Assembly (NCBI GenBank): GCA_001577715.1
Contig: LQAA01000143.1
Span: 1 to 51,286, forward strand
Origin: Candidatus Adiutrix intracellularis
GTDB taxonomy: Bacteria > Desulfobacterota > Desulfarculia > Adiutricales > Adiutricaceae
Direction of reading: 5' to 3'
Length of the DNA stretch: 51,286 bases
Under the pieces are notes generated by a model. It saw only the letters and a list, made by a program, of their open reading frames with translations, was not told where the DNA came from and did not search any database. The position numbers were made by a program, and so were the translations under genes. Of the stretch, positions 3,064 to 48,128 are shown one piece after another (position 1 is the first letter of the stretch; every line of letters begins with the position of its first letter).

Positions 3064-3152
3064 CGATCTAGAATGGGCCCTGGTAAAATCGGGTTCTTTG
3101 TTGCTAACATTTAAAAAATTTGGAGGTGAGCGACCTTTAACCATTTGCTTTT

Positions 3153-3379
3153 GAGGCAGGGTAGGGAACATCCGCGTAAATCGGGGACGGGCCCGCCGCT
3201 GTGACTGGGGACGAACATGGTGAGGCTGTGCCTTTTAAGGCAGCGGGAGATGAGTTCAGGTGGATACCGGTCGCGCCTGGCGGAAAGCTCATCCCCTCGG
3301 CTTTAAGCCACTGGCGGTTCAACTGCTGGGAAGGTGCCGTAATTAGGTTAATCCAGAAGTCAGAAGACCTTCCTGCCTC
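3153..3379 (+). promoter_or_regulatory. cobalamin (adenosyl-B12) riboswitch, orphan
   Basis: The closing stem is perfect: GAGGCAGG (3153-3160) with CCTGCCTC (3372-3379). The conserved core CCCGCCGCTGTGACTGGGGA lies at 3193-3212, preceded by a GTAAATC segment. The 3' conserved part has GCTGGGAAGG, TTAATCCAGAAGTCAGAAGA and ACCT, matching the B12-box region. A variable arm of about 100 bases separates the two conserved parts. Such riboswitches normally repress B12 uptake or synthesis genes, or B12-independent isozymes, when B12 is bound. No intact gene follows on this strand until 8204. The longest frame here (3201-3587) overlaps the RNA and is not credible. Confidence 0.9.
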
Positions 3380-3590
3380 GTGCGCGGGCTGTTTCCTACC
3401 TCTTAAAAAAGGCTGGAAATGGAGATCGCTTCAAATGGCGCCCGAGACGCCTTCGGTTGTTTACTCTTTAGTCAGAGAAATTAGCCTAAAGGTCCGGGAA
3501 AGAGGCTCGTGGATTAAGCCTGGCGTCAAAACTCATGGATTTAGGGCGTCCCTGGGTAAAATAGTTGGCTTTCGGGCCGACTCGTAAAGA

Positions 3591-44001: not shown

Positions 44002-45112
44002 ATGCTGATAGATCTCAACCCTGTCGCTAAAAATATCGCCGAACGCCTGACTATCCTCAGGGGGTATCTTTGACCTACCAGCTTTGAACCGTCGTCTGAG
44101 CGAACTGGATGAAATCATGACTCAGGCCGGCTTCTGGGATGACCCTCAGAATGCTCAGTCTGTAAGTCAGGAGCGCACCCAGCTCGGCGAACGCCTGAAA
44201 GACTGGGTGACTTTGGAAAAAGAGGGTGAGGAAATAACCCTGTTATTAGATTTAGCTCTGGAAGAAAATGATGAGACTCAGGCCGAGGGATTATCTGACC
44301 AGATTAAGGCTATGATTCGGGCTCTGGATCTTTATGAAGTCAAACGTACGTTGAACGGTCCCCATGATTCAGTTGGGGCTATAGTTGATATTCATGCTGG
44401 GGCTGGGGGCACTGAGAGTCAGGACTGGGCCCAGATTCTTCTGCGCATGTATTTGCGCTATGCTGACCGTAACAATTTTAAAGCTGAGATCGTTGACCGA
44501 CTTGAGGGCGATGAGGCGGGTTTGAAAAGTGTTACTTTTACTCTAGCCGGTCCTTATGCCTTTGGTCTGATGCGTTCTGAAGTAGGCATTCACCGTCTGG
44601 TACGTATTTCGCCTTTTGATTCCCAGAGTCGCCGTCACACCTCTTTTGCTAGTGTCTTCGTCACTCCCGATGTGGCCGACGACATCGTCATTGAAATAAA
44701 CGATCGAGATCTGCGCATAGACACTTATCGGGCTAGTGGGGCTGGGGGGCAGCACGTCAATAAAACTAGTTCGGCCGTCCGTATTACTCATCTGCCCACT
44801 GGCATCGTGGTTCAGTGCCAGGACGACCGCAGTCAGCACCGCAATAAAGATATGGTTATGAAGGTGTTAAAGTCCCGTCTCTATCAGTTTGAAAAAGAAA
44901 AAAAGGCTGCTGAGGTTAGTAAACTTAATAACAGCAAAAAAGAAATAGCCTGGGGTAGCCAGATTCGCTCTTATATCCTTCAGCCCTATAGGCTAATTAA
45001 AGATAACCGCACTACCTATGAAAGCGGCAACGTCGACGCGGTGCTGGATGGCGATTTAGCCGGCTTTGTTCAGGCCTATCTCCTCAAACAGGCAAGCGAG
45101 TCTGGCACATAA
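44002..45112 (+). CDS. prfB: peptide chain release factor 2, with programmed +1 frameshift
   Basis: RF2 ends translation at UGA and UAA. The gene begins at ATG 44002 (MLIDLNPVAKNIAERLTILR), reads 23 codons to an in-frame TGA at 44071-44073, then shifts +1 (CTT TGA C to CTT-GAC) and continues to 45112, giving about 369 residues. The N-terminal helical domain, the stop-recognition SPF in RISPFDSQSRRHTS and the catalytic GGQ in RASGAGGQHVNKTSS are all present. The 3' part alone is open only from the TTG at 44084, so a naive annotation loses the first 28 residues. Eroded DNA follows the stop. Confidence 0.95.
44060..44074 (+). promoter_or_regulatory. RF2 autoregulatory frameshift site
   Basis: AGGGGGTATCTTTGAC: an internal Shine-Dalgarno (AGGGGG), three bases, the slippery CTT and TGA followed by C, as in E. 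coli prfB. Low RF2 lets ribosomes pause at UGA and slip +1, so RF2 controls its own level. The sequence starts with the A at 44059 or the G at 44060. Confidence 0.95.
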
Positions 45113-46929: not shown

Positions 46930-47397
46930 GTCCGTAGGAACAGGAGTAGAATTTGGCTCGGAAAGAGGTCTTTTTAGCTGGTAAAGAAAGCGACCTAAGC
47001 GTTTTGGAGGAAGCGTCGAAGAAGAACCTTCAAGACGCTGATATCAGTAAGCGGAAAATCGTAGTTATATTGCAGTGGAACTAAACCATTTTGGTCGAGT
47101 AGAAGGCCCTGGCTGAACAGCAAAAAAAAGAAAACTAACGCGACGCTCGCATTCTGTATCTAGCTATCACTTATGACGGAATTAAAGCTAAGTAGGTTGG
47201 GGGGTGGGGGGACAATCAACAATTTGGATGGCGATGTAGTTGTGTTTATTTTGTCAGGTATGGTCGGCCGGAAAACTGGTTTAATTTTGGTTAACGTTGA
47301 CCCGGGGAAAACCGCCAGGCGGACTAAGGCTATTTTAGAAGAATGCATTAATCCTAATATGTTGATCGAAGATGAAGGTGCTCAGTCGGGCCAATAA
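46930..47397 (+). pseudogene. probable motE (flagellar MotC chaperone-like) relic
   Basis: Scraps of a Lys/Glu/Ala coiled coil (LARKEVFLAGKESDLSVLEE, ASKKNLQDADISKRKI, ALAEQQKKEN, ILYLAITYDGIKAK) precede NLDGDVVVFILSGMVGRKTG and LILVNVDPGKTARRTKAILE. The last part fits the MgtE-N-like repeat of MotE (A-V-x-I-L-x-x-M-x-x-R-K-A-x-x-I-L-x-x-x-D-P-x-K-A-A). One open stretch of 74 codons (47173-47397) covers it without a ribosome binding site. Between the two flagellar relics, 46440-46930 has a hydrophobic scrap but no clear gene. Confidence 0.42.
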
Positions 47398-47429: not shown

Positions 47430-47458
47430 TTGACATATTAATTTTTTTCTGGTAAAAC
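47430..47458 (+). promoter_or_regulatory. consensus sigma70 promoter
   Basis: A perfect TTGACA (47430-47435), a 17-base spacer and TAAAAC (47453-47458). It is the only consensus -35 box I found. It points at a structured, terminator-ended RNA and, by read-through, the str operon. Confidence 0.75.
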
Positions 47459-47465
47459 TCACAAA

Positions 47466-47655
47466 CTATGCCGATGGCCCCAAGCAACCGAGTAGGTTAA
47501 AAGGTCGCAGTTCAAAGAAAAAGGGCAGACCATAAGAAAGTAGGATAACCCGTAAGCGGGTGAACTTTCGTAGCCTGACTTGGGTCAATCGTTGCTCTAA
47601 CCCCTTCCTGGGTGTACCTTGTGGGGGTAACCCATCAAGCCTAAACGGCTTTTTT
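47466..47655 (+). ncRNA. candidate small RNA of about 190 bases (6S-like)
   Basis: There is no frame, but a promoter just upstream and an intrinsic terminator at the end define a unit of about 190 bases. It folds into a long broken hairpin. GATGG (47473-47477) pairs with CCATC (47632-47636), CCCC with GGGG (47623-47627) and AAG with CTT (47618-47620). At the tip GAAAGT pairs with ACTTTC around ACCCG-TAAG-CGGGT (47548-47561). The apex falls in the middle, as in 6S RNA. An AACC/GGTT side hairpin lies in the 5' arm. The 11-base string AAGCAACCGAG is shared with the candidate at 2298-2308. It could instead be a leader of rpsL. Confidence 0.45.
47637..47655 (+). terminator. short intrinsic terminator of the candidate RNA
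   Basis: AAGCC (47637-47641), loop TAAAC, GGCTT (47647-47651), then T to 47655. The stem is short, so read-through into rpsL is likely. From 47656 to 47756 no further promoter is clear. Confidence 0.55.
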
Positions 47656-47756
47656 GGTGCCCGGTTTCAGAGTGGACCTGATGTTTCCTAGAAGGCGCAA
47701 GGGTTTAAGGCTTGGCGAAGGAATAATTGTTTATTAGTTATTTTTAAGGTTGTGTC

Positions 47757-48128
47757 ATGCCGACTATTAATCAGTTGATTCGTAAAGGCCGCAAGGTCCA
47801 GCTTAAGAAAAATACTGTGCCAGCTCTGAAAGCCTGTCCTCAAAAGCGTGGAGTCTGCATCAGGGTTTATACCGCTACGCCTAAGAAGCCCAATTCGGCT
47901 CTCAGAAAAGTGGCTCGCGTCCGGCTCTCCAATAGTATGGAAGTAACCGCTTATATTCCCGGTGAAGGTCATAATCTTCAAGAGCATTCTGTGGTTATGA
48001 TCCGCGGTGGCCGTGTTAAGGATTTACCTGGAGTGCGCTACCATGTTATCCGCGGGGCTTTGGACGCCATCGGGGTTCAGAAACGGCGTAATGGTCGCAG
48101 TAAATATGGGGCCAAACGGCCTAAGTAA
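47757..48128 (+). CDS. rpsL: 30S ribosomal protein S12
   Basis: S12 sits at the decoding centre of the 30S subunit. The 123-residue protein has [11 protein letters not shown], the [17 protein letters not shown] loop, [20 protein letters not shown] and [16 protein letters not shown], all conserved. The two lysines linked to streptomycin response (in TPKKPN and VKDLPG) are wild-type. The ATG follows AAGG at 47745-47748. It is the first gene of the str operon. Confidence 0.97.

Follow-up and report, generated by a model that had tools for sequence, protein, structure and literature searches.

A structured RNA conserved upstream of rpsL in the family of Candidatus Adiutrix intracellularis, probably a cis-acting leader of the str operon

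The DNA analyzed here (the window) is 51,286 nt of contig LQAA01000143.1 from Candidatus Adiutrix intracellularis (assembly GCA_001577715.1), read on the forward strand. It carries the str operon, rpsL-rpsG-fusA-tuf, and directly upstream of rpsL lies the element under study (Table 1). A preliminary description, made from the sequence alone, had proposed that a promoter at 47430 and a terminator at 47655 enclose a non-coding RNA of about 190 nt, folded into one long hairpin, and that this RNA could be 6S RNA or an undescribed regulator of ribosomal protein synthesis. Elsewhere in the window, a cobalamin riboswitch (RF00174) was found at 3141–3390 on the forward strand (41.6 bits, E = 3.5e-07), and prfB has the classical programmed-frameshift signal of RF2 (AGGGGGTATCTTTGAC) at 44055–44075, with the listed open reading frame beginning after it.

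Table 1. Features at the rpsL locus of the window
Feature	Position	Strand	Basis or remark
Decayed MgtE_N/MotE-like pseudogene	46941–47397	+	tblastn of the intact L004 protein; outside the element
Sigma-70-type promoter	47430–47458	+	TTGACA 47430–47435, 17-base spacer ending in TGG, TAAAAC 47453–47458
P1, 5′ strand (CGAT...GCCCCAAG) and conserved loop CAACCGAGTA	47473–47494	+	Loop conservation; loop at 47485–47494
Lineage-variable hairpin insert within P1	47495–47578	+	84 nt here, 2 nt in compact genera
P1, 3′ strand (CTTGGGTC...ATCG)	47579–47591	+	Pairs with 47473–47484; covariation
3′ domain, 5′ strand (CCTTCCTGGGTGTACC...): P3, start of P4	47603–47621	+	Conserved in 33/33 genomes
Terminator-like hairpin AAGCC-TAAAC-GGCTT (AAGCCTAAACGGCTT) plus T6	47637–47655	+	Within the 3′ domain; genus-specific
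3′ domain, 3′ strand (AAGGGTTTAAGGCTTGGCGAAGG)	47698–47721	+	U5–8 directly after it in other genera; degenerate here (AATAATTGTTTATT)
Probable rpsL ribosome-binding site AAGG	47746–47749	+	Sequence
rpsL (ribosomal protein S12)	47757–48128	+	Open reading frame; homology

The promoter is present as described, and relatives have one at the matching place, with 8–11 of the 12 consensus positions. Transcription would start near 47465. The promoter at 47430–47458 escaped an automatic sigma-70 scan, since the last T is missing from its –10 hexamer. TTGACA had been called unique in the window, yet it occurs 15 times, against 17 copies expected by chance. The terminator-like hairpin with its run of six T also exists, and what failed was its reading as the end of the unit: conserved sequence runs beyond 47655 to 47721 (TTTAAGGCTTGGCGAAGG), so 47655 is not where the element stops. 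Judged by this conservation, the true element extends to about 47721. The adjoining DNA is indeed heavily decayed. The remnants of the MgtE_N/MotE-like gene contain in-frame stops and a change of frame, and an intact version of 364 aa is found in a genome of the same genus (L004, 1767–2861). Since the promoter, the loop and the 3′ strands of the leader are all kept while the gene upstream has decayed, selection on the leader is supported.

An initial DNA search detected pieces of the element upstream of rpsL in three genomes of the same genus. rpsL was collected across the family of the window, and the sequence upstream was then inspected, giving 33 genomes from 11 genera in which it was readable. 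The element was found upstream of rpsL, in the same orientation and with a sigma-70-type promoter, in all 33. Within the genus of the window, the promoter, the terminator and the motifs between them were kept in each of the six genomes with a readable rpsL. Strong matches to a model of the 3′ domain were confined to the region upstream of rpsL; the window's own copy scored weakly (24.6 bits). Roughly 390 sampled genomes from other families of the phylum gave no match at E ≤ 0.001, and the weak matches seen in other families of the order lay on contigs different from that of rpsL. Seen in the window only, the element would not stand out; with these comparisons, the best reading is of a leader family restricted to one bacterial family and new to Rfam.

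In the sister families examined, rpsL apparently follows the end of rpoC, which was recognized by eye from its reading frame, and it is preceded by a promoter of its own and by a leader with a different pattern of conservation. Seven genomes of one sister family (L160, L161, L163, L167, L172, L173 and L175) share another motif upstream of rpsL, a hairpin of the type TTCCA(G/T)YG...CGCTGGA with GGCGAACGTGCTTT, which looks like an analogous but unrelated rpsL leader. These differences accord with the published view of rpsL leaders as multiform (PMC2965389).

Comparison of the 33 sequences resolves the element into a 5′ hairpin (P1), variable hairpins and a 3′ domain, the variable hairpins lying between the other two. 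The loop of P1 is near-invariant, with consensus CANC(C/U)GAGU(A/G), and the columns AGCA.C.GAGT do not vary across the 33 genomes. Its pattern occurs once in the window (0.03 expected). Compact genera have a 12-nt loop, and the other genera carry a further hairpin between GUA and the 3′ arm. The stem itself changes in compensatory fashion, as in CCAAG/CUUGG, CCGAG/CUCGG, GCGAG/CUCGC and UUAAG/CUUAA. Paired cells made up 86.4% of P1, versus 72.0% in shuffled alignments, and double changes numbered 53 versus 17.8, with none of 500 shuffles as high. Every control in which the register was slid scored lower. Sequence conservation in close relatives and covarying pairs, both of which the preliminary description had named as checks, are thus found.

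The 3′ domain begins with CCUUCCYGGGUGYACC (47603–47618 in the window) and ends with RGGUSYUAAGGCYYGGNGAAGG (47698–47721). These strands can form a long-range closing helix, CCUUC.YGGG with CCYGG.GAAGG, and an inner helix, ACCY with RGGU. Minimum-free-energy (MFE) folding of the isolated domain returned the same two helices in nearly all 33 sequences, that of the window included (47603–47621 with 47710–47721). In the register taken from this folding, 93.5% of cells were paired and double changes numbered 13, versus 4.3 in shuffles (0/500 as high); further pair types numbered 12 versus 10.1. Because the domain is so conserved, covariation here is modest, and with only 18 sequences most measures fell short of significance. 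The inner helix ends in a U-A pair, in place of C-G, in the genus of the window, as it does in single members of two other genera. Another register for P3, containing an internal mismatch, was discarded as worse than the bulged MFE register (one of its pairs was unpaired in 24 cells). In many rows of the alignment, though not all, P3/P4 face competition from a local hairpin, YRGG-UGYA-CCYR, which could be the alternative state, with uneven support.

The proposed fold into one long hairpin, with its apex at the mid-point, does not stand out. The stretch from 47430 to 47655 is no more stable than its shuffled versions (z = –0.52; 60 of 200 shuffles as good), a longer stretch gave z = –1.32 with an MFE fold that differs from the conserved structure, and the modules described above are separate, the last of them closing beyond 47655. 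The identification with 6S RNA fares no better. The element is of similar length to 6S RNA, and a divergent 6S could be sought here, since RF00013 had no match in 29 genomes of the order. The 6S model did not match the site, however, at the gathering threshold or at E ≤ 10, and it did not match the relatives' copies either. Nor does the architecture fit: separate modules, with conserved loops and a 3′ domain closed over a long range, stand in place of one long hairpin with a central bubble, and the invariant place before rpsL, with the readthrough geometry described below, is that of a cis element. We regard a 6S RNA of this lineage as very improbable. More broadly, Rfam searches of the window, of the 400-base site and of the loci of eight relatives, at gathering thresholds and at E ≤ 10, yielded only chance-level matches at the element, with no Rfam family accounting for it. 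As a separate observation, RF00013 matched elsewhere in the genome in 10 of 10 sampled sister-family genomes, versus 0 of the 29 from the order. The order's 6S RNAs could be lost or diverged, and the model could miss them.

Signals resembling terminators recur at the 3′ end. Outside the genus of the window, 27/27 genomes have five or more U close to GAAGG, at most a few bases away. The helix before this U tract is the closing helix of the large domain, not a classical compact terminator hairpin. In the genus of the window the U tract next to GAAGG is degenerate, and a GC hairpin followed by U5–6 sits inside the 3′ domain in all six genomes. Five genomes (L102, L104, L106, L109 and L110) have a second conserved T run just past the U tract (GGYGA...TCRCC plus T6), which is possibly a second, mutually exclusive terminator hairpin.

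Do these signals delimit a free-standing RNA or a leader? A trans-acting small RNA, bounded by a promoter and a terminator of its own and located before rpsL by chance, would account for the 190-nt unit that the two signals enclose in 6/6 genomes of the genus, and for the U tract that follows the structured domain in other genera. Yet the position upstream of rpsL is fixed in 33/33 genomes with no strong match elsewhere, and in the genus of the window the conserved RNA extends past the inner terminator. Moreover, in one other genus (g7) the distance from the end of the U tract to the rpsL ATG is only 31–45 bases, with promoter-like scores of at most 3–5 of 12 in that interval. A further promoter would not fit into this gap, so transcription of rpsL most likely passes through the U tract. 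The preliminary description was right about the two signals, but a free-standing RNA is less likely than a leader; we consider the trans-acting reading unlikely. The fixed position, the readthrough geometry and the confinement of strong matches to the region before rpsL therefore point to a cis leader.

A leader could also act after transcription, on rpsL translation or on mRNA stability or processing, with the U tracts incidental. The conserved structure with loops resembling protein-binding ones would suit such a role, as would the degenerate U tract in the genus of the window. On the other hand, the conserved structure does not obviously include the probable Shine–Dalgarno sequence of rpsL in its pairing, and the presence of U5–8 after GAAGG in 27/27 genomes, with a substitute terminator where it is lost, favors termination. 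We rate this reading slightly below the trans-acting one. Attenuation by a leader peptide is scarcely credible. A short open reading frame (ATGCCGATGGCC...), encoding a peptide like MPMAQATE, is present in the genus of the window, but the window itself preserves neither its frame nor its length, and the other genera lack it, with no ATG in their 5′ arm. With the frame not conserved, comparison largely refutes this model.

These data suggest, with a probability that we put at about 0.68, that the str operon has here a structured leader acting in cis, about 260 nt long from the promoter at 47430–47458 to about 47721, which functions as a transcription attenuator. Promoter, structure, conserved loops, U tracts and position rest on comparison, and we infer the steps of termination and ligand binding. 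As in r-leaders, a structured 5′ UTR of a ribosomal protein operon carries covarying pairs; as in rpsL leaders, it lies directly before rpsL on the same strand, with a terminator-like structure before the start codon. Of the ideas in the preliminary description, selection on the element and an undescribed regulator of ribosomal protein synthesis are thus well supported, by the position in 33/33 readable genomes and by the covarying pairs.

In the attenuation model, the helix before the U tract would end part of the transcripts before rpsL. In the genus of the window, the short inner hairpin with U6 would do so instead, and attenuation would then yield the 190-nt unit from promoter to terminator, so that a short RNA of about this size may be made. 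A ligand of the conserved loops would shift the balance towards termination by stabilizing the terminating form, and the CANCCGAGUA loop and the UGYA/YUAAGG internal loop are candidate contact sites. Comparison of the leader rows revealed no clear antiterminator. The ligand would most likely be an excess ribosomal protein of the operon, with S7 or S12 plausible. For a comparison of possible rRNA mimicry, the 16S rRNA recovered was a partial 5′ part from one relative only. We know of no case in which S12 has been shown to be the ligand of an r-leader. A more specific version, tentative and clearly less likely than the leader reading itself, is that of a new str-operon leader family in this bacterial family only, in which one genus has moved its terminator inside the domain and the ligand is S12 or non-ribosomal.

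Premature terminators before rpsL are a recurring arrangement, described as rpsL-leader attenuators in Listeria, Xanthomonas, Pseudomonas and Rickettsia (Naville and Gautheret 2010, PMC2965389), and such leaders are multiform, without sequence or structure conserved between phyla (PMC2965389). The element studied here is likewise a structured leader that lies directly before rpsL and holds a predicted premature terminator. It differs in lineage, in having no Rfam match, in its strongly conserved loop motifs and in an antiterminator that is only a candidate. The rpsL motif of Candidatus Pelagibacter ubique is also a conserved structured RNA before rpsL and a proposed regulator of ribosomal proteins (PMC2704228). 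That motif is a three-stem junction without a terminator, lies downstream of rpoC and is limited to marine SAR11 (PMC2704228), whereas the element in the window is not downstream of rpoC. In E. coli, S7 (uS7) autoregulates the str operon at the level of translation, through a site between rpsL and rpsG (PMC10931766). The operon is the same and the feedback signal is likely of the same kind, but the structure described here precedes rpsL and is associated with terminators. Neither its sequence nor its structure is among the variants in PMC2965389, PMC2704228 and PMC7247131, and it is absent from Rfam. As a kind, rpsL leaders are already known; this sequence family appears to be new, and its relocated terminator is its most unusual feature.

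rpsL leaders have been predicted in scattered phyla without shared sequence or structure, and their ligand is unsettled (PMC2965389). Here, 33 alignable examples with near-invariant loops and covarying stems are enough to design tests of binding and termination. In the window, the element is still kept although the neighboring gene has decayed. Within one family, the terminator appears to have been relocated while the rest of the switch was kept. If true, a terminator shift with the remaining structure under selection would be a visible step in the rebuilding of an attenuator.
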